A stretch of 64,000 nt of DNA from Yarrowia lipolytica. Lineage: Eukaryota > Ascomycota > Dipodascomycetes > Dipodascales. Below are positions 12,098-60,511 of this stretch, one piece after another. The DNA lies in the NCBI RefSeq assembly GCF_001761485.1, contig NC_090770.1, positions 620,001 to 684,000 of the forward strand, written 5' to 3'. Position 1 is the stretch's first letter; each line of letters starts with the position of its first letter. The position numbers and the translations under genes were made by a program. The notes under the pieces are model-generated. The model had not been told where the DNA came from. It did not search any database and was given only the letters and a program-made list of their open reading frames with translations.

Positions 12098-12605
12098 TTA
12101 GGTGCATGACTCGAAACAGAGAGAAAGGAAAGGAAAGTTGTAGAAGCGTAGAAGCGATACAGAAACAACAATTATCAGATAAAAAAACAGCACGATCAGA
12201 AATATATAGAGCAAGTTACGCCTTACACCCATTCCAGAATGTACCACAGTCACTTTATACTCCTTTACACACTCCCTTCATCGTCTATCCCCCTTGCATA
12301 TACGAGAATCTTATTTTAAACCTATGTAGCCAGCCGCTTCCAAAGAACGCTGAGGAATATCAGCACTTTTGTAAGCCGCTCGAAGCGGAAAATTTCCAAG
12401 AAAATTACCAGGGGATAGAGCTGGTGGCAAAAAGAGGGTATTCGGCGCTTCCACATATCCGAAAATATCTTCTGAATATACAACTGAAAGGTTTGAGTTT
12501 CTACACAGGCCCACATCATGATGGTGAAAGCAGGTAGGGGACAGAACATGGCAGATTATGGAAAGGGCAAAAAAGGGAAACAAGAAGCTCCGCAAGGGGC
12601 AAAAC

Positions 12606-12723
12606 AATTGCAGCACCCAGGATTCTCGTATGGTCTCCCACTACAATACTAACTAGGCTCTCTGGTGCTTGACTATGGCTGATCGGACGGGAAGCCGTAT
12701 TTTCACCAGGATATGGCCGCAAC
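12606..12723 (-). rRNA. 5S ribosomal RNA, copy 1
   Basis: On the minus strand this reads GTTGCGGCCATATCC...CCCGTCCGATCAGCCATAG...AGCACCAGAGAGCC...GTAGTGGGAGACCATACGAGAATCC...GGTGCTGCAATT, which is the standard eukaryotic 5S layout: the 5' and 3' ends pair, and the internal control region (A box, intermediate element, C box) lies in AGCCATAGTCAAGC...GTGGGAGACC. About 118 nt; the ends are accurate to one or two bases. A short T run (TTGTTTT) follows at the 3' end as Pol III terminator. It stands alone, not fused to a tRNA gene. About 50 bp of 5' flank is shared with the copy at 22.3 kb, ending at a CACGTGA. Confidence 0.93.
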
Positions 12724-12780
12724 TGGGTTCGGACAAAAGGACGAGGTTGGAATTGGGCCTTGTAAGCCACGTGACAGCTA
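12724..12780 (-). promoter_or_regulatory. conserved 5' flank of 5S copy 1 with CACGTG
   Basis: Nearly identical to the flank of the second 5S gene over about 50 bp, then similarity stops. It contains CACGTG at 12768-12773, about 45 bp upstream of the RNA start. A role in Pol III transcription is inferred. Confidence 0.55.
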
Positions 12781-21602: not shown

Positions 21603-22252
21603 TGTGTGTGGTATTTGGGGTGTTGAGGAAGAGCGAGAGTCAGCCTCGGTGTCAAGAGAGGGCCTTCATACACTGGTGGTGTGGCTTGCTTAGATGACGC
21701 ATTATCACCAAATCTTAAAGATCACCCCACACTTTTGCCTTTGAACCACGGAAATTTCAGGCAACTAAACTCCCAACAAAGTACTGGGATTTAGGACTGG
21801 AAATTGTGAAGAAAAACAGAACAAAAAGAAACAGGAGCAGATATGGCGCCACAGTTGGTGAGTATGCGCGAACTTTTCTGCAGTAAAAGTTGATCTGCTG
21901 AAAGAAGAGCATAACAAGTACGACTGGTGAGTTGTGGGTTTGTCGGGTGCTTGGACGAGTCCATATTGAATCTTTCACTTTCGCAGCATGGTCACTCACC
22001 GAAGAACATATGTACAAAGTACGTACTAACAGGAGACCGCAAATAACAATGCGAGCCTCCGAGAGTCGTACTTGTAGTAGTTCTTACAGCTTCTGCAAAA
22101 CCATACCTTCATATTTGGTCTCACATGGTTACTTTTAGTTCCAGTTTTCTACTCGGAACCTCACAACGAGCTTAGTAAGCAGAGACTACGGAATTCCGAG
22201 CCACTCGCCCACTCGTCCACTATCCACTCGACACTCACAGGATTCAAAAAAC
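21603..22252. other. intergenic, no gene seen
   Basis: GST promoter and the 3' side of 5S copy 2. One TACTTGTA near 22070. Short ccactcg repeats at 22200-22235 lie just downstream of the 5S gene. Confidence 0.5.
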
Positions 22253-22370
22253 AATTGCAGCACCTAGGATTCTCGTATGGTCTCCCACTACAATACTAAC
22301 TAGGCTCTCTGGTGCTTGACTATGGCTGATCGGACGGGAAGCCGTATTTTCACCAGGATATGGCCGCAAC
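22253..22370 (-). rRNA. 5S ribosomal RNA, copy 2
   Basis: Identical to the copy at 12.6 kb except for a single substitution near the 3' end (cacctagg in place of cacccagg on the plus strand). The same internal control elements are present. The 3' T run here is TTGTTTTTTG. Also unfused to a tRNA gene and on the same strand as copy 1. About 118 nt; ends accurate to one or two bases. Confidence 0.93.
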
Positions 22371-22425
22371 TGGGTTTGGACAAAAGGACGGGTTTGGAAT
22401 TGGGCCTTGTAAGCCACGTGACCAC
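22371..22425 (-). promoter_or_regulatory. conserved 5' flank of 5S copy 2 with CACGTG
   Basis: Matches the flank of copy 1 over about 50 bp with three substitutions. CACGTG lies at 22415-22420, about 45 bp upstream of the RNA, at the same distance as in copy 1. Similarity ends just after it. Confidence 0.55.
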
Positions 22426-29316: not shown

Positions 29317-30092
29317 TTAGAAGAGGAAGGCAACAAGTGCTACAGAGACGAGACTAGCAGGAATACTGTAGCGAGAGGCCGAGTTGGCTTGAGCGGCACC
29401 GGAGCCGGTACCAAACTGGTCAGGTCCAGACTCATCAGTTCCCAAACCAGATCCAGAGCCTGAGCCGGAATCAGAGCCTGAGCCAGATCCAGAGCCTGAG
29501 CCGGAATCAGAGCCTGAGCCAGATCCAGAGCCTGAGCCGGAATCGGAGCCTGAGCCGGATCCAGAGCCTGAGCCGGAATCGGAGCCTGAGCCGGATCCAG
29601 AGCCTGAGCCGGAATCGGAGCCTGAGCCGGATCCAGAGCCTGAGCCAGATCCAGAGCCTGAGCCTGAATCAGAGCCTGAGCCCGGAAATCGGAAGCCTGA
29701 GCCGGGATCCAGAGCCGGAGTCGGAACCAGAGCCAGATCCAGAGCCGGAACCGGAGTCAGATCCAGAGCCGGAACCAGAGCCGGAACCGGAATCGGATCC
29801 TGAGCCTGAGCCAGAGCCTGAGCCGGATCCTGAGCCTGAGCCGGAATCAGAGCCTGAGCCAGATCCAGAACCGGAGCCGGATCCTGAGCCTGAGCCGGAA
29901 TCAGAGCCTGAGCCAGATCCAGAACCGGAGCCGGAACCAGAGCCAGAATCAGAGCCAGAGCCAGAGCCAGAACCGGATCCTGAGCCAGAGCCAGAATCAG
30001 AGCCTGAGCCAGATCCTGAGCCTCCGTTTCCTCCAGAAGATCCAGAGCCAGAGCCAGAAGTACCATCACCAGATCCAGATCCAGAGCCAGAG

Positions 30093-30128
<36 letters not shown>

Positions 30129-33100
30129 GTACCATCACCTCCAGATCCAGAGCCGTTACTGGAAGAACCATCTCCACCAGAGCCAGATCCAGAGCCGTTA
30201 CCAGAAGTACCATCTCCTCCAGATCCAGAGCCAGAGCCGTTACCAGAAGTGCCATCTCCTCCAGATCCAGAGCCAGAGCCGTTGCCGGAAGAACCATCTC
30301 CTCCAGAGCCAGATCCAGAGCCAGAGCCGTTACCGGAAGTGCCATCTCCTCCAGATCCAGATCCAGAGCCGTCACCGCCATTGCCGGAAGAACCATCTCC
30401 TCCAGATCCAGATCCAGAGCCAGAGCCAGAGCCGTTACCGGAAGTGCCATCTCCTCCAGATCCAGAGCCGTTACCAGAAGTGCCATCTCCTCCAGATCCA
30501 GATCCAGAGCCGTCACCGCCGTTGCCGGAAGAACCATCTCCTCCAGAGCCAGATCCAGAGCCGTCACCGCCGTTGCCGGAAGAACCATCTCCTCCAGAGC
30601 CAGTTCCAGAGCCGTCACCGCCGTTGCCGGAAGAACCATCTCCTCCAGAGCCAGATCCAGAGCCGTCACCGCCGTTGCCGGAAGAACCATCTCCTCCAGA
30701 GCCAGATCCAGAGCCGTCACCGCCGTTGCCGGAAGAACCATCTCCTCCAGATCCAGATCCAGAGCCGTCACCGCCGTTGCCGGAAGAACCATCTCCTCCA
30801 GAACCAGAGCCGTCACCACCGTTTCCGTCACCATCACCTCCAGATCCACTTCCGCCATCGCCGTTGCCGCCGTTTCCAGAAGTGGAAGTAGAAGAAGTAG
30901 GAGAAGCAGTTGTGGGAGTACCAACATTACCACCGCCATTCGTGGAAGACGTGAGAGGAGTTGAAGATAGAGAGTCCGAGGTGTCACCGGACTGAATCGA
31001 CGTGGGAGCATTGGTGTTAGTACCATCAGGGATTGACGAAGTAACCGTGCCAGACACACCAGTGTCGGTAGCAGTAGCTCCAGTGTCGGTAGCAGTAGCT
31101 CCAGTGCCGGTGTCGGTAGCACCAGTGTCGGTAGCAGTAGCTCCAGTGTCAGTGGCAGTAGCTCCAGTGTCGGTAGCAGTACCGGTGTCGGTAGCACCAG
31201 TGTCAGTAGCAGTACCGGTGTCGGTAGCACCAGTGTCAGTGGCAGTAGCTCCAGTGTCAGTGGCAGTAGCACCAGTGTCGGTAGCAGTACCGGTGTCGGT
31301 AGCACCAGTGTCAGTGGCAGTAGCACCAGTGTCGGTAGCAGTACCGGTGTCGGTGGCACCAGTGTCGGTAGCAGTACCGGTGTCGGTAGCTCCAGTGTCA
31401 GTGGCAGTAGCTCCAGTGTCAGTAGCAGTAGCACCAGTGTCGGTAGCAGTACCGGTGTCGGTAGCACCAGTGTCGGTAGCAGTACCGGTGTCGGTAGCAC
31501 CAGTGTCAGTGGCAGTAGCTCCAGTGTCGGTAGCAGTCGCTCCAGTGTCAGTGGCAGTACCGGTGTCGGTAGCACCAGTGTCAGTAGCAGTACCGGTGTC
31601 GGTAGCACCAGTGTCAGTGGCAGTAGCTCCAGTGTCGGTAGCAGTACCGGTGTCGGTAGCACCAGTGTCAGTGGCAGTAGCTCCAGTGTCAGTAGCAGTC
31701 GCTCCAGTGTCAGTGGCAGTACCAGTGTCGGTGGCACCAGTGTCAGTAGCAGTACCGGTGTCAGTAGCACCAGTGTCGGTAGCAGTAGCACCAGTGTCAG
31801 TGGCAGCACCGGCTGTCGGTAGCAGTGTCGGTGGCAGTGGCACCAGTGTCGGTAGCAGCACCGGTGTCGGTAGCAGTGTCGGTGGCAGTGGCACCAGTGT
31901 CGGTAGCGGTGTCAGTGGCAGTGGCACCAGTATCGGTAGCAGCACCGGTGTCAGTAGCAGTGTCAGTGGCAGTAGCTCCAGTGTCGGTAGCAGTTGCACC
32001 AGTGTCGGTAGCAGCACCGGTGTCGGTAGCAGTGTCAGTGGCAGTGGCACCAGTGTCGGTAGCAGTGTCAGTGGCACCAGTGTCTGTAGCAGTGTCAGTG
32101 GCACCAGTGTCAGTAGCAGTAGCTCCAGTGTCGGTGGCAGTGGCACCAGTGTCGGTAGCAGCACCGGTGTCGGTAGCAGTGTCGGTAGCAGTGGCACCAG
32201 TGTCGGTAGCAGTAGCACCAGTGTCGGTAGCAGTGTCAGTGGCACCAGTGTCAGTAGCAGTAGCTCCAGTGTCGGTGGCAGTGGCACCAGTGTCGGTAGC
32301 AGCACCGGTGTCGGTAGCAGCACCGGTGTCGGTAGCAGTGTCAGTGGCAGTGGCACCAGTGTCGGTAGCAGTGGCACCAGTGTCGGTAGCAGTAGCACCA
32401 GTGTCGGTAGCTGTGTCCGTGGCACCAGTGTCAGTGGCAGTAGCTCCAGTGTCGGTAGCAGTTGCACCAGTGTCGGTAGCAGCACCGGTGTCGGTAGCAG
32501 TGTCAGTGGCAGTGGCACCAGTGTCGGTAGCAGTGTCAGTGGCACCAGTGTCGGTAGCAGTGTCAGTGGCACCAGTGTCGGTAGCAGTGTCAGTGGCACC
32601 AGTGTCGGTAGCAGTGTCAGTGGCACCAGTGTCGGTAGCAGTGTCAGTGGCACCAGTGTCAGTAGCAGTAGCTCCAGTGTCGGTGGCAGTGGCACCAGTG
32701 TCGGTAGCAGCACCGGTGTCGGTAGCAGTGTCAGTGGCAGTGGCACCAGTGTCGGTAGCAGTGGCACCGGTGTCGGTAGCAGTGGCACCGGTGTCGGTAG
32801 CTGTGGCACCGGTGTCGGTAGCTGTGTCTGTAGCAGTGTCTGTAGCAGTGTCTGTGGCAGTGTCTGTAGCAGTGTCTGTAGCAGCAGTGTCTGTAGCAGT
32901 GTCTGTGGCAGCAGTGTCTGTAGCAGTGTCTGTAGCAGTGTCTGTGGCAGCAGTGTCTGTAGCAGTGTCTGTAGCAGTGTCAGTAGCAGCAGTGTCTGTA
33001 GCAGTGTCTGTGGCAGTGTCAGTAGCAGTGTCAGTAGCTCCAGTGTCGGTAGCAGTAGCTCCGGTATCTGTGGCAGTAGCTCCAGTGTCTGTGGCATCAG

Positions 33101-35917
33101 TGGTCTGAGATACAGACTCTTCAGTGGTCGTGACGGGCAGAGTGCTCACAATAGTGGTGCATGAACCAGTAATGGTGTCTGTTACACACGACGAAGAAGC
33201 CGTAGTGGACATTCCGCATCCTCCAAGGTTGTCGAGGAAAATAGCAGGGAGGTTAGGAATGGATGACAGATCGAAGATAGAGACACACTGCAGACACTGA
33301 CCAGCTGCCACAGCTCCCGCCAAAAGACGGTCACAAATACAAGTACCACCAAGAATATTGCAGGGAAGAAGGTTGTTCACAATTCCTGTGCAGATTGAAA
33401 TGCACTGCGCCAATGTAAGTCCGTCATCGATCGGGGTACAAGTAGTAGACGAAGTGTCGGGCTCGCAAGATGTCATGGTTGTAACCACATCAGTTACAGT
33501 AGCAGCACCGGTGTCGGTAGCAGTGTCAGTGGCAGTAGCACCAGTGTCGGTAGCAGTGTCAGTGGCAGTGGCACCAGTGTCGGTAGCAGCACCGGTGTCG
33601 GTAGCAGTGTCAGTAGCAGTGGCACCAGTGTCAGTAGCAGTGGCACCAGTGTCGGTAGCAGTGGCACCGGTGTCGGTAGCAGTGTCTGTGGCAGCAGTGT
33701 CTGTAGCAGTGTCTGTGGCAGCAGTGTCTGTAGCAGTGTCTGTGGCAGCAGTGTCTGTAGCAGTGTCTGTGGCAGCAGTGTCTGTAGCAGTGTCAGTAGC
33801 AGCAGTGTCAGTAGCAGTGTCAGTAGCAGCAGTGTCTGTAGCAGTGTCTGTAGCAGTGTCTGTGGCAGCAGTGTCTGTAGCAGTGTCTGTGGCAGCAGTG
33901 TCTGTAGCAGTGTCAGTAGCAGCAGTGTCTGTAGCAGTGTCTGTAGCAGCAGTGTCTGTAGCAGTGTCTGTAGCAGCAGTGTCTGTAGCAGTGTCAGTAG
34001 CAGCAGTGTCTGTAGCAGTGTCTGTGGCAGCAGTGTCTGTGGCAGCAGTGTCTGTAGCAGTGTCAGTAGCAGCAGTGTCTGTAGCAGTGTCTGTGGCAGC
34101 AGTGTCTGTAGCAGTGTCAGTAGCAGCAGTGTCTGTAGCAGTGTCTGTGGCAGCAGTGTCTGTAGCAGTGTCAGTAGCAGCAGTGTCTGTAGCAGTGTCA
34201 GTAGCAGCAGTGTCTGTAGCAGTGTCAGTAGCAGCAGTGTCTGTAGCAGTGTCTGTGGCAGCAGTGTCTGTAGCAGTGTCTGTGGCAGCAGTGTCTGTAG
34301 CAGTGTCTGTGGCAGCAGTGTCTGTAGCAGTGTCTGTAGCAGTGTCTGTAGCAGCAGTGTCTGTAGCAGTGTCTGTGGCAGCAGTGTCTGTAGCAGTGTC
34401 TGTAGCAGTGTCTGTAGCAGCAGTGTCTGTAGCAGTGTCTGTAGCAGCAGTGTCGGTAGCAGTGTCTGTAGCAGCAGTGTCGGTAGCAGTGTCAGTGGCA
34501 GAGGCACCAGTGTCGGTGACATCAGTGGACTGAGACTCAGTTGTAGACTCGTCAGTGGTGATGACGGGCAGAGTGCTCACAATAGTGGTGCATGCTCCAG
34601 TTTGAGTCTGTGTAACACACGATGAAGAGGCAGTTGTAGCCATTCCACAGCCGCCCAAGTTGTTCAAGAACAATGCGGGGAGGTTAGGAATGGATGACAG
34701 GTCGAAGATAGAGACACACTGCAGACACTGACCCGCTGCTACAGCTCCAGCCAAAAGACGGTCACAAATACAAGACCCGCCGATGAGCCCACAAGGAATT
34801 AGGGTAGTCACCAGACTTGTACAAACGGAGGTGCACTGAGCGAGCGTCATACCGTTGTCAACTGGACTGCATGTGGAAGAGACAGTGTCTGGCTCGCATG
34901 AGGTCATGCTGGTGACCTGTTCTGAAGGTGAGGCGGTAATGGAACGACAAGCACCAGGGAGAGTGGTAGTATCACACTGAGTCTGGGGACCAACAGGAAT
35001 ATTGCAATCAGCGTAGTAGTTCAGAAGGTTGCTAGCCAGATTGGGAATTGCGGCTGTCAGGTCAAATAGCTGGGAACACTGCAGACAGGCGGCAGCAGTT
35101 GCCAGCATGCCTCCAAGTCTATCACAGATGCAAGTGGTCACACCGACACAGAGACCAATTTGAGCAATCAGGTTTGTGCACTGAGTTGAACATTGGACGA
35201 AGGTGAGATCCTGAGGATTGGGAACCGAACAAGTGGAAACAATTTGAGGTGGGTCACAAGTCACAGCAGGGTCAATTGTGGTGGTTTGACACACGGGCTG
35301 GGGAGTTGTAGGCTGTCCACAACCGGCAACAAATGTAAGAAGTCCACTTGTGATGGGGAGAACAGAGACATCGAAAATTGAAGCACAGGCGATACAGTCG
35401 TTAATGTTTCCAATTGTCTGCACCACCCGGTCGCAGATGCACGACTGGATGCCCAAACAGAGGGCGATATCGTTAATAACGGCGGAACAGATTGACAGAC
35501 AGCTAGCTTGGTCGGGAACGGATGGGAGAGCACAGCTGGTAATCGTAGTCTCGGGGGCTCGCCGCTGCAGGGCAAAATGACGAGGCGCGGATGTGATAGT
35601 CGGAAGAGGGGCGCCGCAAACGGGGACTTGGGGAGCGAAGGGCTCACCTCTCGATTCAAGTTCGTTGTAGACGGCGTTTTTGTTGTCCAGGTGGAACACT
35701 GTCAGACATTGCAGACACTATGTTAGTACGGTTAAGACACAGGGTACAGCAGCATGATACTCACTTTCTCAACATCGGCATTGTAGATGAGAAAATCATT
35801 ACAAGCACTCAAGCAAGAGTTCTCGTTTAATGTGGTCGCTGGGATGCACGTTAGGGGACGTTGCACCGGACCAGCTGCTACCAAGGCGGCAGCAGTCAGC
35901 AACAATGATAGTTTCAT
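29317..35917 (-). CDS. giant Cys-rich, repeat-rich, GPI-anchored cell-wall protein
   Basis: Start ATG at 35917; exon 1 35765-35917, intron 35718-35764, exon 2 down to 29317. If the repeat indels are ignored, the product is about 2,180 residues. Order: signal peptide ([16 protein letters not shown]); a short Cys module; three full modules of 11-12 Cys sharing CICDR, C-x2-C followed by a FDL-like segment, and GCG (about 35.53-34.58 kb); a TDTA-type Thr/Asp tract (34.52-33.49 kb); a fifth module almost copying the fourth (33.48-33.15 kb); a second tract of TDTGATA type (33.10-31.03 kb); [12 protein letters not shown] repeats, then GSGSDS repeats; and a GPI signal ([21 protein letters not shown]). 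It is likely heavily O-mannosylated, an adhesin or structural wall protein. As given, the frame shifts at 31813 and within 29681-29706, so no single frame spans it. I do not recognise the Cys module; it resembles but does not match CFEM. Confidence 0.8.
29440..30050 (-). repeat. Gly-Ser-Asp coding minisatellite of the wall protein
   Basis: Units of agcctgagcc(g/a)ga(t/a)cc coding [12 protein letters not shown]. It includes the cluster of extra bases at 29681-29706, where four homopolymer-like steps are each one base longer than in neighbouring units. Confidence 0.85.
30050..30860 (-). repeat. [17 protein letters not shown] coding minisatellite of the wall protein
   Basis: Tandem units of about 48 bp (tctcctccagagccagatcc...ccgttgccggaagaacca) coding [17 protein letters not shown]. 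At least six near-identical copies lie between 30500 and 30800. Confidence 0.85.
31030..33100 (-). repeat. TDTGATATD-coding Thr/Asp tract B
   Basis: About 2 kb of units of 12, 15 or 18 bp reading (g/a)caccggtgtcggtagca on the plus strand, coding [17 protein letters not shown]. The single extra C at 31813 (ccggctgtcgg for ccggtgtcgg) changes the frame here. Confidence 0.9.
33490..34520 (-). repeat. TDTAATDTA-coding Thr/Asp tract A
   Basis: About 1 kb of 21-bp and 12-bp units reading gtctgtagcagtgtctgtggcagca on the plus strand, coding ATDTATDTA. It separates the fourth and fifth Cys modules. Confidence 0.9.
35718..35764 (-). other. 47-nt intron in the wall-protein gene
   Basis: On the minus strand it begins GTGAGTATC and ends TACTAACATAG. 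Phase 0. Splicing joins NADVEK to CLQCLTVF and so restores the C-x2-C of the first Cys module, matching CLQC in the later modules. This is good evidence for the intron. Confidence 0.85.
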
Positions 35918-35966
35918 CTGCGTTAGTCTCACTCGTAAAGATTGCAATTGAGGGAAAAGTACTCAC
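35918..35966 (-). other. 49-nt 5' UTR intron ending at the start codon
   Basis: On the minus strand it begins GTGAGTACTT and ends GACTAACGCAG, directly abutting the ATG at 35917. A TATA-like element (CATATAACC) is about 60 bp upstream. An upstream ATG in the leader is out of frame and would stop at the splice junction. Confidence 0.65.
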
Positions 35967-40327: not shown

Positions 40328-41299
40328 CTAAATGAGAGCGGCGAAGGCAGCAACGACGGCGACACCGGCAGCCAGCTGGGTGTTGAAAGAAGAGCCAGTG
40401 TTGGCCTGGTCAATACCGTTTCCATTGGGGATAGAGGGGCCCATGGTGGAGTTGGAAGGAGAGGACTTGGAAGGAGAGGAGTCGTCGGAGATGGACGAGG
40501 AGTCGTCGACGATGGAAGAGGAGTCGTCGACAACGGTGGAGTCGTCGGAGTCGTCGACGACCTGCTTGTCGGTGGTGTCGTTGACGATATCATCGTTGGA
40601 GTCGTCCTCAACGTTGGAGTCGTCCTCGACATTGGAGTCATCCTCGACGTTGGAATCGTCCTCGACGTTGGAATCGTCCTCGACATTGGAATCGTCCTGA
40701 GAATCACCGGTCGCCTCGGGCTTGGCATCGCCAGTGGCAGTGGGAGCGGCATCATCCTCGGCGGCAAAGTTGGGGGCGTTTCCGGCAAGACCAAGGTCCT
40801 GGGCAAGAGCCTGAACTCGCATGGTGGCTCGGCTCCACTGCTCGGGGATCTTGGGAGTCAGCTGGGGCAGGTTGGGGGTGACGATTGCCATAACTCGACC
40901 CAGGTTGTTCTCGACGTTGGCCATGGCCTTGGGAACATCGTAGTGGGGCAGGGCAGAGTGCAGACCGTTGGAGACCTTGGCGTAGTCGGGAGAGCCCTCA
41001 AAGGCAGCCAGGGACTGGCCGGCGGCAGACAGAAGCTCGGGCAGGTTGTCGTCGTTCAGGCCGGCCATGGCAACGGGCATGGCCTTGGAGAAGAGACCGA
41101 TCATGTCGGGGTTCTTGGTGACAACCTCCAGAACGGCCTGGAGCTCGGAGGTGGCCTGCTCGGGAGACACGGAGTCGTCCGTCTTGGCGGCAGCAATGCC
41201 GTCGACAATCTGGTTAGCCAGAGAGGCCACAATGGGGTTCTGGGCGGCAACAAGAGAGGCCAGAATGGCAAAAGTGGCGGAGGTGGAGAGAGAAACCAT
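40328..41299 (-). CDS. secreted GPI-anchored protein with DDSNVE repeats
   Basis: 323 residues. A signal peptide (MVSLSTSATFAILASLVAAQ) is followed by an Ala-rich helical domain to about residue 180. Then comes an acidic region with five or six exact DDSNVE hexapeptide repeats, DSS-rich sequence, and a GPI signal (SSFNTQLAAGVAVVAAFAALI). It is probably a plasma-membrane or wall mannoprotein. The globular part is not one I recognise. Codon use is strongly biased towards GTC, CTC, GCC and GAG, which suggests high expression. A TATATATA box lies about 55 bp upstream. Confidence 0.88.
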   Translation of the reverse strand: MVSLSTSATFAILASLVAAQNPIVASLANQIVDGIAAAKTDDSVSPEQATSELQAVLEVVTKNPDMIGLFSKAMPVAMAGLNDDNLPELLSAAGQSLAAFEGSPDYAKVSNGLHSALPHYDVPKAMANVENNLGRVMAIVTPNLPQLTPKIPEQWSRATMRVQALAQDLGLAGNAPNFAAEDDAAPTATGDAKPEATGDSQDDSNVEDDSNVEDDSNVEDDSNVEDDSNVEDDSNDDIVNDTTDKQVVDDSDDSTVVDDSSSIVDDSSSISDDSSPSKSSPSNSTMGPSIPNGNGIDQANTGSSFNTQLAAGVAVVAAFAALI

Positions 41300-47293: not shown

Positions 47294-50200
47294 ATGCCGT
47301 CTCTGTTCCACGGCGTGTACCAAGCGCTCTACGACTATGAGGCTCGTACGGAGGACGAATTGACCTTTTCCGAGAACTCGCTTCTCTACCTTTTGGAAAA
47401 GTCGTCGACCGACGAGTGGTTAAAGGCCAAAAAAGCTGGACCTGCGGGCACCAACGAAATCGGACTGGTTCCCTTGACTTACATTGAGCCGGCGCCGGCC
47501 AAACGACAAGCCTATGCTCTTTACGACTACGACAAACAGACAGAGGAGGAGCTGACCTTCAAGGAGGGAGACGCACTGACAGTCTACGATGACAGTGACA
47601 GTGAATGGTTGCTGGTGTGCCGCGGAGGAGACGAGTACGGATTTGTGCCTGCAAACTACACCGGCGACGCTCCGCCATCCGCGGCCCCTGCCCCCGTGGC
47701 TGCTATTCCCACGCCTGTTGCCGCCATTCCCACCCCCGCTGGCCAACCGACGACGCCCATCACCAAAGACTCACCACTACCTCCTCTTCCAAAGGATGCC
47801 TTCCCCCCGCCCCCACAAGCGTACCGACCGCCTGCCTCGACCACCCATGCGTCCACCGAGCCCGTCTACGCCAACGGACGGGACGAAGAGTCTCCCCCTC
47901 CCATGCCTGCCCGACCAGGCGGAAGCGGAAATGGAAGTGGACGGCCCTCTTCGGGAGCAGGCGACAGCCGAAGCCGAGGCTCGTCCGTGTCTCGATCTCG
48001 AAACGCTTCCTCTGCAAATGACAAGCCTTCCTCGTCTTCTGCCAACTTCTTCACATGGCCTGTCCAGGAGGTGGACGGACGGAAAAAACGAAAAGCGACT
48101 CTGGCGATTGGCAACGGCATGATCATGTTCTCCCCGGAGCGATCGTCCGGACAGCCCCAACAATGGCCAGTCAAGGATCTCGTTAACTACAACAGCGAGA
48201 AGAAACATGTGTTTCTAGACTTTAAGCACCCCACCGTCTCGTTTGATCTGCACCTGGGAAGCAAAGATACCGCTGACGAGGTGATCTACGCCCTTGGCGA
48301 ACTCGCAGGAGCCTACAACTCTTCGGGACTCACCGAGGTAATGATGGCAGCCAACTCGGCCGGCCAGAAGCTCGGAAAGGTGCTGTACAAGTTTGACGCT
48401 CAGGGTCGAGACGAGGTGTCTGTGGAGGAGGGCGAGAATGTGTTCATTATAGATGACACAAAGAGCCGGGACTGGTGGATGGTGAAAAACTCGTCTGGAG
48501 TCGCTGGTGTCGTCCCCAGTAGCTACATTGAGATTGCGCCCAGCGAAAAGACCCTCAAAAAGGTAGTTGACCAGCAGAGGAAGGCCAGCGGCTCGTCGCG
48601 TGATAAATCACGTGACCGATCCCGTGACGACCGGTCTCGAGATCGAGCGGACAAGCGATCGTCTCGATCTTCCAGAGACGCTCCCAAGTCCAAGCCTGAT
48701 CCTAGAAAGGTGCGAACTTGGACCGATCGGTCCGGTGCATTCAAGGTAGACGCCGCTCTGCTTGGATGTGTGGACGGCAAGATCCATCTGCACAAGGTCA
48801 ACGGTGTCAAAATTGCCGTGGCCTGTTCCAAAATGGCCATTGAGGACTTGGAGTATGTGGAGGACGTGACGGGCGTTGATCTGGAGGAGGACAAGCCCCT
48901 TTCTCGAGATCGGGGCGGATCTTCGCGAGACCGACGACGGTCCACCTCTCGGTCCGACCGGCGAAAGTCGTCATCGGGAGCAGCGTCTTCTGCAAACGCT
49001 CCCAAGCCAACTCCCGAGTCGGACTACGACTGGTTCGGATTCTTTTTGGATTGTGGAGTCGACGTGCATGCCTGTCAGCGATATGCCACCTCGTTCACAC
49101 GAGATCAGATGGACGAGTCGATTCTGCCTGAAGTGACTCCCTCCACTCTGCGATCTCTGGGTCTCAAGGAAGGTGATATTCTGCGAGTCACCAAAAAGCT
49201 TGACGAAAAGTACGGTCGAAGCGGCACTGGTACTTCTGCCAGCACTCCTGTGGGCGGCAACCCCTCCGGTGGCCTGTTCTCAGACACCACTGGTGCTCTG
49301 AAGAACAACACCAGCAAGACTCTTACCAAGGCAGACGATACCGATCCCTGGTCGTCTCTGGATAAGCAGCAGGCTCCTCCCCAGCAACAGGCGCCCCCAG
49401 TTCAGCAGCAGCCCCCCGTTCAGCAGCAGCCTATCCAGGCTCAGCCCACAGCTCCTATTCAGCAGCAGCCCATTCAAGCTCAGCCTACTGCTCCCATCCA
49501 GCCTGTTCGAACCGGCTCCATCAACGATCTGATGAACATCAAGCCTCTGCAGCCCACCCCGACATCTTCCAACCTGCAGACACAAGCTACTGGTGGTATC
49601 ATGCAGCCCATCCAGCAGCAGTACACCCAGCAGCCAATGTCCCAGTCCACGAGTGCTCTCCCTCAGCAGAGCATGAACACCGGCATTCTTCCCCAGACCA
49701 CTGGGCCACTACAACAGTCTCTTACCGGATCTGCTCCCGTGCAGAATCCTTTCCTAACTGGTGGTCCCAACACTCTTCTCAGTCAGCAGACTGGTGGGCT
49801 GGTTGGTGTCCCCACCGGCGGTCTTGTTGGTGTCCCCACAGGTGGACTTCAGGGCGTTCCTACCGGTTACACTGCTCAGAATGTTCTTGGCATGAACCAG
49901 CCTGCAAACACGGGCGGGTACTCCATGAATGCCATCACCAACGCTCTTGCCGGTGCTTCCCTCAACAAGCAGCAGCAGCAGCAGCAGCCCATGGTCCAGC
50001 AACTTACCGGAGGCAGCATGTTTGGCCAACAGCCCATGCAGCAGCAGCTGACGGGCTCCAGCATTTTCCAGCAGCAGCCCATGCAACAGCAGTTCACCCA
50101 GCAACAACCAATGCAACAGCAGTTCACTCAACAGCAGCCAATGTCGCAGCAGCTCACTGGTGGCAGCATTTTCAATTCTCAGCCGCAGCAGCCTTTTCAG

Positions 50201-50724
50201 CAGCAGCCTATGCAACCTCAGCAGACTTCCTTCCAGCAGCAGCAGCCCTTTTCCACTGGAGCTTCTGCTTCGCCGTTTGGAAGCCAGCCTACTACTCCTT
50301 TCGGACAGCCCCAGCAGTCTGCCGGTTTGAGCTACTTTAACAACATCCAGCCTCTGCAGCAGCAGCAGGCGTTTGGTCAACAGATGCAGCCGCAGCAGAC
50401 CTTCCAGCCGCAGCAGCCTTTCCAGCAGCCTTTCCAGCAGCCTTTCCAGCAACAGCAGCAGCAGCCTTTCCAGCAGCAGCAACAACAGCCTTTCCAGCAG
50501 CAGCAGCAGCAGCCCTGCAGCAGCAGCAGCCGTTTGGTGGCCTGCAGTCGCAGCCTACCGGCTTTGGTTTTGGAAACAGCTCGTCACCCTTTGGAGGCAT
50601 GCAGTCTCAACAGACCGGAGCACCTTCCACTTCTTTTGGTCAGCAGCCGCTACAGCCCACCGCCACGGGTCGTCAGCGAGCCAACCTGGCCTCTGCCACT
50701 CCTAACAATCCCTTTGGTTTTTGA
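47294..50724 (+). CDS. SLA1: actin cytoskeleton-regulatory endocytic adaptor Sla1, frame-shifted near the end
   Basis: Sla1 couples NPFxD cargo, clathrin and Las17/Arp2/3 at endocytic sites. Domains: SH3 at 5-67 and 72-125; a Pro/Ser-rich linker; a PH-like domain at about 248-342; a third SH3 at about 360-415; an RD/RS-rich linker; SHD1 (KVRTWTDRSGAFKVDAALLG) at about 473-531; SHD2/SAM-like at about 578-642; then a Gln-rich tail with many LxxQxTG repeats, the targets of Prk1/Ark1 kinases. In the CAG-rich tail at 50513-50515 a C run is one base short relative to the surrounding reading. After it the original frame gives an unrelated tail to 50758, while the adjacent frame carries further LxxQxTG-like motifs and the family-typical end ATPNNPFGF, stopping at 50724. 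Either a sequence error or a truncating allele. Confidence 0.93.
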
Positions 50725-51083
50725 GAGGCTATGTATGAATAATGTTATGATAATGTAATTGGCGACTTGTATGTGAATGGACGAGCTAATTGAAAATGTG
50801 TAACAGGTATTTTGATAACCAGAATGTATAATCTCATGTGACTTACAGTTGCTGCCATCAAGATTAAATAGATTAATAAATGATTTGTAACAGCAACAAC
50901 AATAATGGGCATTTTTACTCCTCTAATCTCCAAACCGAGGTGTAGTTGCAGCAGTCAAAATTACGGTTTGGAAACAACATTAAGGTTTTATTGTCTAACA
51001 GAAACTGCATTTTGAAACTTTGGGGTCACGTGACCCGTGAGTCATGTTGAAACCTCCATTGCGATGTAGCCAACCCATCACGG
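50725..51083. other. intergenic, SLA1 3' end to tRNA
   Basis: AT-rich 3' region of SLA1. Contains the perfect 14-bp palindrome GGGTCACGTGACCC at 51023-51036, about 50 bp before the tRNA. Confidence 0.6.
51023..51036 (+). promoter_or_regulatory. GGGTCACGTGACCC palindrome upstream of tRNA-iMet
   Basis: A perfect 14-bp palindrome around CACGTG (51027-51032), ending 47 bp before the tRNA. It resembles a Cbf1-type or general CACGTG factor site. Confidence 0.55.
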
Positions 51084-56354: not shown

Positions 56355-57877
56355 GAGCCTGCGTTCGGAGATATCGGAGATATATATCGGGATGAGGACG
56401 TCAATGGTTCATGACCTGAAGGAAAGGACGGGACTCTGTGAGTTTGAACAAGTCTTTGGGAATGTTCAGTTGAGAGCCTGGATGGGGACATTGAAACTGT
56501 CACGAGTGGCACTGTCACGAGTGAAAGGGACTAGTGAGGGTGTAGATCTACCTGTGCGGGAATGACAAGACATTCAATGGGTTTCCAGAATGAGTTCCCG
56601 TTGACAAGAATGGGTATACGCGACAGAAAAAGCTTTGGTACAAGCATTTGTAGTCTATCAATCATCTAACTCGCAACATTAATCTTCCATTGAACTTGCT
56701 CTAGACCCTTTTTGCCTCGTCCAACTATTCCCGCACAACCCTGAAGCGTAGAACAACTGTCCCGGAGAGCAAGCAACGTCCAATGGTTCCTTACACATGG
56801 AGCACAGTACTTACAGTACCTAAGCCCAAACCGGATACTCAATTGAATGTCTAAGACCACAAAGGACTGTCTCACTCATGAAATAACGTCAGCCACACGG
56901 CTTCCCCGGATTCTTCCAGCAGTATGTACAGTAAGTCAGTATGCACAGTAGGAAGCAGGCAACTTTGCGAGGAGTGACCCTACAAGAATGAAAATTGCTG
57001 CATTTCAATTGGCATGACTGTTAGTACTTGTACAAGTACAAGACTTGGTTATAAACAACTTCCTTCCCTGGATGGGGCCAAGTTATCTCTTTCCATGACA
57101 TCTTCTTTAGGAGCTAGAACAGTTTGCTACGAACCTGCTACGAACCTGCTACGAACCTGCTACGAACCTGCTGCGAACCTGCTACGAACCTGCTACGAAC
57201 CTGCTACTAAAACCGTCAAAAAAAGTTCTTTAAGAACCAGTTTTTTTATTAAACATTTGTCAACACCTGAAAAGTTCTATAAACGCCACTTTTGTCTTTT
57301 CCATGGCGTTTTTCGGCCTCCAGCTCACCACCCGTCCATTACGTCATAAGCGTAACCGCAGCAACGTGTGTCAACATTGAAAATATTTGAAGAGGCCCAA
57401 ACACTCCGACACTCCACCAACAGAGGCGGAAAAACTTGCTACAGAAACAGCAGAAAAGCCGAAACTTCAAAATCGAACGTTGACACTGTTAATAACCACC
57501 ACAAGCAACTACTTTAGTATCTGCTCTCCCCACTTCACCACTAACCCTGGCTACCATTCAAGTACAATATACCCCACAATTTCTTTGAACAATTGCCCCT
57601 GAAGTTTAGGTTCAGTGGATTAACGGCTAGAAGAAGGGTCACGTGAGCCTCGGACGTGCTAGAGACTACTTTGGAGACGCTAAGAGGCACCGGAAACGGC
57701 CTCTTCATCTCTTGTTAGTCCGTCTTTGCACCTTGGACAGCCGGTTGCACTCGTTCTCTGACACTCGGTTTTTAGGTTCCACAACATGCACGAAACGCCC
57801 TCCTTGTATCTGCATCTTCAACTACAGTGCATACAAGTACAGTTGCGATATCAGACCGACATCCGAGCTCTCCAGCC
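56355..57877. other. 1.5-kb intergenic upstream of YVC1
   Basis: No gene supported. Contains the 11-bp array at 57125-57208, TACTTGTA/TACAAGTA words near 57025-57040 and 57833, GTCACGTGAG near 57640, and ACTAACCCTGG near 57540. Confidence 0.5.
57125..57208. repeat. 11-bp minisatellite (gctacgaacct), 7-8 units
   Basis: Exact tandem units with one substitution (gctgcgaacct) and a degenerate last unit. Confidence 0.93.
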
Positions 57878-60511
57878 ATGGCCGAAACGACCCCGCTACT
57901 AGGTCGCGACGATCTCGGTGACGCGACGGCGTCTCAGCCGCTCGACCTTGTGCCCATCTACTCGTTGGTGTTGTGGGTTCACGACATTATCACCGACCGG
58001 GTCGAAACGTCTCTCAAGTATGAGCAGATTAAAACACCCCAAATTTACGCCTATCTGATCAAGCCGATTGTGGAGGAGTGTATGGTGACGGTTGGTCCCT
58101 GCGAGGAGGAAAACCGAGCCGAAACGCACCTAGACTCGTGCGATCACGACGAAACCATCTCGGTTGGTATCATCTACTCCCTGCTCGCAAACCAAGTCCA
58201 GTTCCTGAGAGAGAGTGACACAGATGGAGGAGTCCACGGAGGCGTACTGGAGACACGCGCCATTGTGTGTGAGATTGTGGCTCTCAAACTGCTGCGTGAA
58301 CTGCACGAAGACGATCTCATCCAGGCTCTCACTTACGACTTCTACCCACTGGCCACAGGCAAGCCATTCAACGTGATTCCGCGGTACCAGCGCATTAGTG
58401 CCCTCGAAATGGCCATCAAGGCAGGCGCAAAACACTTTCTGGCCCACAGAATCGTGGTTGCGGTCGTCCAGGAGATCTGGGACGGATCTATCATGTTTCA
58501 AAGCAGCATGGACAAGCTGCACAGAAGGAAAAAGCCTGACAATGTGTTCACCCAAGAGCTGGTTGGATACGGACGAAGGGGTCCAGGCGTCAAATACTGT
58601 TATGAGGACGCGTCGCTGTTCAAACTGTCACGACTCAGAGTACCCAGATACAGACACAGTATTGGCATAGTCACTTTTGCGGTGCTCATCGTCCTGTATC
58701 TAGGAGTACTATATCAGCAACACAAGCAACTGGGCACTCTAGAAGTAGTCTTTTGGTTGTGGTCATTGGGGTTTGTGCTGGAGGAAATCATCAACTTCAC
58801 AGATGCGGGATACACCCTCTACGTTATTTCGATCTGGAACATCATCGACCTCATCATTCTGGTGTTTCTCGTATCGTACTTTGTGGTGCGAGTCTATGCG
58901 CTCGCTGTGGCGTCTCCAGACGCATTTTATTACTGGAATGCCCGAGCCTTTGACCTACTTGCCACCGTCGCCATCTTCCTCTTCCCTCGCATGTTTTCTG
59001 TTCTCGACAACTATCAGTACTTTTCGCTCATGCTGATTGCCGTCAGAAAGATGACCATTGATCTCGTGGTCTCGTCTGTAATGATCATCCTCTTTTCGGC
59101 AGGGTTTTGGGTCGCCTTCACCATGGCGTTTGCACGAGACGTGTTTTCAGCCAAGAAGATTGCATACGACCTGATGAAGATTCTGTTTGGCTTCACACCC
59201 ACCGTATGGGATTCCTGGAAGTACTACTCGGTCCTGGGCCGTGTCAATCTCATGTTCTTCCTATTCGTGACACATTTCGTGATAATCACTATCCTGGTGG
59301 CTGTTCTGTCCAACACCTTTGCAGCCGTATCTACCAATGCTTACGAAGAGGTCAAGTTTTTGTTTGCGGTTAACACCATCACTATGATCAAGTCTGAATC
59401 GTCGTCTTTGTTCTCCTACGCTCCCCCTCTCAACCTGCTGGAGTGGGTGGTCAGACCACTGTACTACGTTCTGCCTCTGCGCCAGTTTCTTGTGCTGAAC
59501 CGGACCATCATCAAAATCACGCATGCGCCGATCCTGTGGACCATCTTCTTCTACGAGTGCTTGCATCTGCGCCTCTCAGGGGAGAAGGCTCTCAGAAGAC
59601 GGCAGAATGAGATTATCAAGCACGAGATCATCAAGGGGCAGAACTTTAGAAAGAAGGGCGCCTTGAACTCGTCCACGGCGCCATCCACCAACGCCAGCTC
59701 TACTGCTAATCTCAACACACAGCCCAGCCATGATCTGAGAGCTGTGGTTCCCAACCCAAATAAGATCAGACCAAAGCGGTCATTATTCAACAAGATGGCC
59801 CACAAGCTGCGCAAGCCGTCCAAGCCGGAAATCAAGGTGTCCAACGACGATCTGCTGGACGAAGTGTTCAAGCGGCCATATAAGGGCACTGTCCGCATCA
59901 AAAACAACACAGGAACGGTCCAGATGGAAACCCTGTTTGATGGACAGGATGACGAGGAGGAAGAGAACGCCGTGGATGGAGAAATTCCGTTGGAGAGAAC
60001 CACTTCTCGTGTCACTTATGAGTCTGGAAGACGGACTCACAGTATGACTTCCAGCTCCAGATGGATCCCTACTCGCATTACTGGAAATAGAAACACTTCG
60101 GGAAGCACGTCTGGAAGCACGATTTTGCCCCGAAACAGACTGGCCTCTGCCAATTCGTCTCTCATGCAACAAAATCTCGCCATCAGTCCCTCCAGAACAG
60201 TCAACACGGCTCTCTATCATTACGACAGCGACATCCGGTCCCAGGCACTCAAGTACCAGAAACGACAGCAGCTATTGGACAAGCTGAAGCGCAAGACCTC
60301 GATTGACGACGTGTCTCTTGGCAGTTTGGATGATGACGAGGAGGAAGAGCATGCTGACGACGATGATGACGAGAACGACGATATCTTGTCGGACGCCCAG
60401 CCGGACGGAGAGCTTTTGGACATGACCGCCATGTTGGTGGGCCGAATGGATGATCTCCAGGAGAGCATTCAGAAGATTGAGCTGTTGCTTGGTCATTTCA
60501 TGGAGAGGTGA
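57878..60511 (+). CDS. YVC1: vacuolar TRP-type cation channel
   Basis: 877 residues from the ATG at 57878; the frame opens 17 codons earlier at a GTG. The cytosolic N-terminal half is helical (to about 270). Six membrane segments follow between about 285 and 505, for example GIVTFAVLIVLYLGVLYQ, VVFWLWSLGFVLEEIINF, IWNIIDLIILVFLVSYFVV and NLMFFLFVTHFVIITILVAV. The pore helix/filter region FGFTPTVWDS lies just before the last one. The long C-terminal tail is disordered and ends with a highly acidic run (DDDEEEEHADDDDDENDD region), comparable to the Ca-sensing acidic patch of yeast Yvc1. TRPY1 channels release calcium from the vacuole on stretch or cytosolic calcium. Longer than Saccharomyces Yvc1 (675 residues) owing mainly to this tail. 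Confidence 0.93.
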   Translation: MAETTPLLGRDDLGDATASQPLDLVPIYSLVLWVHDIITDRVETSLKYEQIKTPQIYAYLIKPIVEECMVTVGPCEEENRAETHLDSCDHDETISVGIIYSLLANQVQFLRESDTDGGVHGGVLETRAIVCEIVALKLLRELHEDDLIQALTYDFYPLATGKPFNVIPRYQRISALEMAIKAGAKHFLAHRIVVAVVQEIWDGSIMFQSSMDKLHRRKKPDNVFTQELVGYGRRGPGVKYCYEDASLFKLSRLRVPRYRHSIGIVTFAVLIVLYLGVLYQQHKQLGTLEVVFWLWSLGFVLEEIINFTDAGYTLYVISIWNIIDLIILVFLVSYFVVRVYALAVASPDAFYYWNARAFDLLATVAIFLFPRMFSVLDNYQYFSLMLIAVRKMTIDLVVSSVMIILFSAGFWVAFTMAFARDVFSAKKIAYDLMKILFGFTPTVWDSWKYYSVLGRVNLMFFLFVTHFVIITILVAVLSNTFAAVSTNAYEEVKFLFAVNTITMIKSESSSLFSYAPPLNLLEWVVRPLYYVLPLRQFLVLNRTIIKITHAPILWTIFFYECLHLRLSGEKALRRRQNEIIKHEIIKGQNFRKKGALNSSTAPSTNASSTANLNTQPSHDLRAVVPNPNKIRPKRSLFNKMAHKLRKPSKPEIKVSNDDLLDEVFKRPYKGTVRIKNNTGTVQMETLFDGQDDEEEENAVDGEIPLERTTSRVTYESGRRTHSMTSSSRWIPTRITGNRNTSGSTSGSTILPRNRLASANSSLMQQNLAISPSRTVNTALYHYDSDIRSQALKYQKRQQLLDKLKRKTSIDDVSLGSLDDDEEEEHADDDDDENDDILSDAQPDGELLDMTAMLVGRMDDLQESIQKIELLLGHFMER

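Follow-up and report, generated by a model that had tools for sequence, protein, structure and literature searches.

The gene at positions 29317-35917 (minus strand) of the window, a 64,000-nt stretch of Yarrowia lipolytica DNA, is best explained as encoding a GPI-anchored, adhesin-like wall mannoprotein with CFEM-like heads, whose most likely function is adhesion or surface contact and not haem capture. We hold this explanation with evenly balanced confidence. The cysteine-rich module that makes up the heads, as judged from its sequence, fits no named domain and echoes CFEM in cysteine spacing only. As a wall protein the product is ordinary, and its architecture is of a known kind. Apart from those of the Als, Flo and Epa types, the heads of fungal adhesins and wall proteins are, to our knowledge, poorly catalogued.

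Gene structure and reading frame

Re-reading of the open reading frames places the ATG at 35917 and the stop at 29317 on the minus strand. The original prediction had given the same ends and strand but had overlooked two introns and two frame breaks. From the N- to the C-terminus, the protein of ~2,180 residues consists of a signal peptide, half-module 1, modules 2-4, a first Thr/Ala/Asp tract, module 5, a second such tract, a linker, two Gly/Ser tracts and a GPI-type tail, encoded as follows:

35918..35966 (-): putative 5'UTR intron, 49 nt, GTGAGT...GACTAACGCAG; predicted from sequence signals
35765..35917 (-): coding exon 1, 51 aa, with the signal peptide and the beginning of half-module 1
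about 35870-35917 (-): signal peptide
35718..35764 (-): intron within module 1, 47 nt, GTGAGT...TACTAAC-AT-AG
35574..35854 (-): half-module 1, 6 Cys, no CICDR, intron included
35265..35552 (-): module 2, 10 Cys
34929..35264 (-): module 3, 12 Cys, from sequence and an AlphaFold2 model
34566..34916 (-): module 4, 12 Cys
33486..34565 (-): Thr/Ala/Asp tract 1, 360 aa, 43% Thr, 30% Ala, 21% Asp
33135..33485 (-): module 5, 12 Cys, between the two Thr/Ala/Asp tracts, from sequence and an AlphaFold2 model
31059..33134 (-): Thr/Ala/Asp(/Gly) tract 2, ~690 aa, richer in Gly than tract 1
30875..31058 (-): Ser/Thr-rich linker, no strong repeats
30030..30874 (-): Gly/Ser/Asn/Asp tract, repeat unit 51 nt with identity up to 95%, contains NGS sequons
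29440..30029 (-): Gly/Ser/Asp tract, repeat unit 18 nt
29317..29410 (-): hydrophobic C-terminal signal of the GPI-attachment type, from composition and hydropathy, no dedicated predictor

Two open frames become one once the 47-nt intron (35764-35718) is taken out, and the 3' end of the 49-nt 5'UTR intron directly abuts the ATG. Both introns carry GTGAGT and a branch point adjacent to the 3' splice site, and thus match the description of Y. lipolytica introns, in which the branch point almost touches the 3' splice site (PMC2911113). The window also contains two dispersed 5S rRNA genes (12605-12724 and 22252-22371, both on the minus strand), a Yarrowia trait that is consistent with a nuclear gene; dispersed 5S rRNA genes together with such introns are hallmarks of this yeast (PMC2911113).

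Hydropathy and composition bear out the signal peptide and the GPI signal that had been proposed earlier, and composition likewise bears out the two Gly/Ser tracts. The two tracts formerly described as Thr/Asp are indeed two in number and rich in both residues, but are properly Thr/Ala/Asp tracts (43-44% T, 23-30% A and 17-21% D). The modules hold 52 cysteines and the in-frame stalk none; the remaining two arise from out-of-frame reading at the first frame break. Antisense ORFs of 248-720 aa at 30249-33164 and 33358-34533 (plus strand) were rejected as genes, being mirror products of the in-frame repeats. In the 1 kb upstream, one Mhy1 motif and one Rim101 motif were found, which is near background and uninformative. 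Elsewhere in the window, a second wall-type protein (40328-41299, minus strand) with a signal peptide, DDSNVE repeats, a Ser/Asp stretch and a GPI-type tail belongs to no Pfam family, and a homologue of the YVC1/TRPY1-like vacuolar calcium channel lies at 57827-60511 (plus strand).

The frame is broken at about 31797-31821 (31.80-31.82 kb), in Thr/Ala/Asp tract 2, and at about 29669-29720 (29.67-29.72 kb), in the Gly/Ser/Asp tract. With the intron out, the ORF as sequenced ends after 1,357 aa, in tract 2 and ahead of the GPI signal. If both breaks were genuine, the gene would be a pseudogene or truncated allele and the cell would secrete a 1,357-aa product at most, lacking the Gly/Ser tail and anchor, as the stop of the given sequence in tract 2 and the second break in the Gly/Ser tract would have it. 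However, the repeats are undecayed on both sides of each break and run on in the shifted frame for hundreds of codons, as far as a GPI-type tail that is intact. Within the tracts, repeat copies are spaced by multiples of 3, except where the interval crosses one of the two breaks. A like break is present next door in an SLA1 homologue (47294-50758, plus strand) with SH3, SHD1 and PH_SLA1 domains, in which the frame changes in a CAG repeat near 50528 and a plausible Sla1 C-terminus ending in NPFGF carries on in another frame; this suggests that the assembly is prone to indels in repeats. Because the repeats are undecayed across the breaks and this conserved neighbour is broken in the same way, sequencing or assembly error is, though not proven, likelier than gene loss, and we consider a pseudogene or truncated allele improbable.

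Relatedness and duplication of the cysteine modules

All of modules 2-5 contain CICDR and a C-x2-C that is followed by FDL or FDV. The GCG motif, which had also been ascribed to all four, is found in modules 2, 4 and 5 but not in module 3, which has DCN at this place. In an alignment of modules 2-5, C1-C8, CICDR, F-D and the flanking cysteines are invariant, and the conserved non-cysteine positions are D52, R53, F71 and D72. Pairwise scores among these modules stand well above those of cysteine-preserving shuffles (Z 7-26, with 0/1000 shuffles as high). This relatedness, together with a mean of 0 strict matches per shuffle vs 3 in the head region, led us to reject a chance cysteine pattern. 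Half-module 1 covers C4-C8 at the C-terminal side of the core, the N-terminal part being missing. When it was scored against a modules 2-5 profile, 0/597 shuffles did as well, and its relationship is weaker than that among modules 2-5. The five cysteine modules of the original prediction are related, but they amount to four full modules and one half. Growth of the gene by internal duplication is supported.

Module 5 does lie between the repeat tracts (33486..34565 and 31059..33134), as had been described. It was also held to be almost a copy of module 4; at 79% protein identity and 76% DNA identity, with a dS of 0.74-1.0, it is not a near copy, and the duplication is not recent. With this dS and a dN/dS of about 0.15-0.2 (dN 0.15), module 5 is an old duplicate under purifying selection. 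A 78-nt patch (34683-34760 vs 33252-33329, minus strand) is 95% identical between the two modules and the rest about 70% (permutation p 5e-5), which could reflect gene conversion or local constraint.

Searches of the first 447 aa against Pfam returned no family, including no adhesin head of the Flo11, PA14, Hyphal_reg_CWP or Als type. Pfam hits of module 1 to DUF4215, Zn_ribbon_RPB9 and Glyco_hydro_2_N2 were weak, all below the cut-off, and were discarded. The module had no match in NCBIfam, and no relatives were found by sequence in the PDB or in viral and prokaryote DNA (viral contigs and genome contigs). The earlier statement that no named domain has this pattern therefore stands for the copies of Pfam, NCBIfam and the PDB sequences that were searched. 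Many fungal secreted proteins contain similar C-x3-C...C-x-C...C-x2-C stretches that are not known to carry a family name, and for this reason the module may prove to be common rather than unique.

Comparison with CFEM and predicted fold

The CFEM domain (PF05730), which is found in Rbt5, Pga7 and Csa2 of Candida albicans, has the consensus PxC[A/G]x2Cx8-12Cx1-3[x/T]Dx2-5CxCx9-14Cx3-4Cx15-16 (PMC8867779). Modules 2-5 have eight core cysteines in the CFEM order, C-C-C-CxC-C-C-C, with C-x-C formed by C4-C5, and half-module 1 has this order only in part. Modules 4 and 5 share the spacing C-x3-C-x9-C-x6-C-x-C-x12-C-x2-C-x22-C, and modules 2 and 3 have a third gap of 5. From C1 to C6, including the C5-C6 gap, the gaps of modules 2-5 (3-9-5/6-1-12) lie inside the CFEM ranges (x3, x8-12, about x5-10, x1 and x9-14). 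In Csa2, a CFEM protein of known crystal structure (4Y7S), the gaps taken from the PDB are 3-9-6-1-11-4-15 vs 3-9-6-1-12-2-22 in the module core, so that C1-C5 of modules 4 and 5 are spaced exactly as in Csa2. By contrast, the C6-C7 gap of 2 (3-4 in CFEM) and the C7-C8 gap of 21-23 (15-16 in CFEM) are both out of range. In denying the module a CFEM spacing, the original prediction is thus correct for the last two gaps and wrong for C1-C6. For eight randomly placed cysteines, a combinatorial estimate puts the probability of matching the first four gaps exactly at 1.3e-5 and that of falling within the C1-C6 ranges at 7e-5, both before correcting for the choice of family.

The likeness extends to a core that is predicted to be small and mainly helical and to occurrence in GPI-anchored wall proteins. 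In contrast to CFEM, the modules have extra cysteines in flanking strands, and the haem-ligand Asp that CFEM carries between C3 and C4 is absent; modules 4 and 5 have a Gly there, and in modules 2 and 3 the segment is devoid of Asp. The modules also differ in going unrecognised by the CFEM model, by profile comparison and by Foldseek. Pfam PF05730 matched none of the modules at E up to 10, the positive control being the Rbt5 CFEM at 1.3e-17, with an Rbt5 sequence that was checked by its match to PF05730 and 4Y7S. A profile-profile comparison by hhalign with a two-sequence CFEM profile (Csa2 and Rbt5) did not reach significance (probability 0.1%, E 0.48). Smith-Waterman similarity to Csa2 was not above that of cysteine-preserving shuffles. 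The placement in an existing family that the original prediction had named as evidence against a new domain was not obtained, as Pfam and the profile comparison fall short of CFEM.

Structure prediction had been proposed along with the module, and it gave one topology at fair confidence in two models. Modules 5 and 3, modelled separately by AlphaFold2 from 4-5 sequences and with no positive-control fold, both form strand-four helices-strand (pLDDT 80 and 78; pTM 0.55 and 0.56), and in both models the four helices fall on C1-C3, C4-C5, C6-C7 and before C8. Because the two models agree, the module does have a stable predicted fold. Foldseek searches of the PDB with both models gave no significant match, and Csa2 (4y7s) was absent, which is a weak negative because only four or five sequences went into the models. 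No significant match to the module model was found in BFVD (viral structures). The top Foldseek matches (MIT domains, 4dci) were set aside, with E of about 1-2 and a TM of less than 0.5.

A precedent for a CFEM fold in diverged form is provided by the extracellular N-termini of fungal ferric reductases, which keep only six of the eight cysteines and show that the fold can persist when cysteines and the Asp are lost and sequence similarity is low (PMC9635878). These N-termini are part of membrane reductases, whereas the modules described here keep eight core cysteines in a GPI wall protein. That the modules are a distant or diverged branch of CFEM in which the haem-ligand Asp was lost seems to us about equally likely to be right or wrong, and they are not filed as CFEM.

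Proposed role in the cell wall

GPI wall proteins are secreted, O-mannosylated on Thr, cleaved at the GPI site and attached to the glucan of the wall. By analogy, the product would be secreted and probably heavily O-mannosylated on its many Thr, and its GPI remnant would be joined to wall glucan. The Gly/Ser tail would then span the wall and the mannosylated acidic Thr stalk would keep the cysteine modules outside it, where they may serve as compact, protease-resistant contact heads, as in Yarrowia Hyr1/Flo11-like adhesins. Tract length would be expected to differ among strains through repeat slippage.

Y. lipolytica has repeat-rich, GPI-anchored Flo11/Hyr1-like genes that are induced in filamentation and respond to alkaline pH and to filamentation regulators (PMC8265631, PMC9769893). 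The features of this broad class, namely a signal peptide, Ser/Thr-rich repeats and a GPI signal, are all present here by hydropathy and composition. With the Hyr1/Flo11-like proteins, YALI0C11165 and YALI0B18194 among them, the protein shares the signal peptide, long Ser/Thr or Gly/Ser/Asn repeats, NGS sequons and the GPI signal; it differs in that the published repeats are SSTGGADA, NGNGSDGS and PESSEA and that no cysteine modules are mentioned for those proteins (PMC8265631, PMC9769893). We can only infer a role in contact or adhesion, because the heads are without a known adhesin domain.

The main rival to adhesion is a purely structural role in the wall, in which disulphide-bonded modules and acidic mannosylated tracts would bind no particular ligand and would mainly serve to cross-link the wall, to space or hydrate it and to determine how permeable it is. 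Such a role would suit a protein made up mostly of low-complexity acidic Thr/Ala/Asp and Gly/Ser tracts, and the GPI-anchored CFEM proteins CfmA-C of Aspergillus fumigatus are reported to affect wall stability (cited in PMC9318983). However, purifying selection on the modules and conservation of D52, R53, F71 and D72 suggest a defined fold or surface, although this is still compatible with a structural protein, and we regard that role as rather unlikely. Still less likely is the haem binding of the original prediction, by a multivalent haem- or iron-binding surface protein derived from a CFEM hemophore: the CFEM-like C1-C6 spacing, identical to Csa2 over C1-C5 in modules 4 and 5, and a GPI-anchored multi-module layout reminiscent of tandem-CFEM wall proteins would agree with it, but no Pfam CFEM match and no Foldseek match to Csa2 (with models from 4-5 sequences) were found, and the idea is weakened further because every module is missing the Asp at which a change to Ala leaves Rbt5 and Pga7 unable to bind haemin (PMC4183699), so that we hold it to be very improbable. 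The CFEM-like heads thus probably do not bind haem as Rbt5 and Csa2 do.

Within the preferred explanation of an adhesin-like wall mannoprotein, a more specific and tentative possibility, which we think doubtful on balance, is that the module represents a new, unnamed fungal surface domain. This would be a 12-Cys unit with a CFEM-like helical core clasped by two strands, rebuilt from a haem-capturing CFEM into a multivalent adhesive head and shown at two heights of the stalk, by modules 1-4 and by module 5 in mid-stalk.

Should the module prove to be a fungal domain that is common but unlabelled, the outcome would simply be one more annotated wall protein. If instead it is derived from CFEM without the haem ligand, it would tie the hemophore fold to another surface role, in parallel to the ferric-reductase N-termini, which tie the fold to iron reduction. 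A profile of the module could then be used to find more such heads in the industrially used yeasts of the Yarrowia clade.
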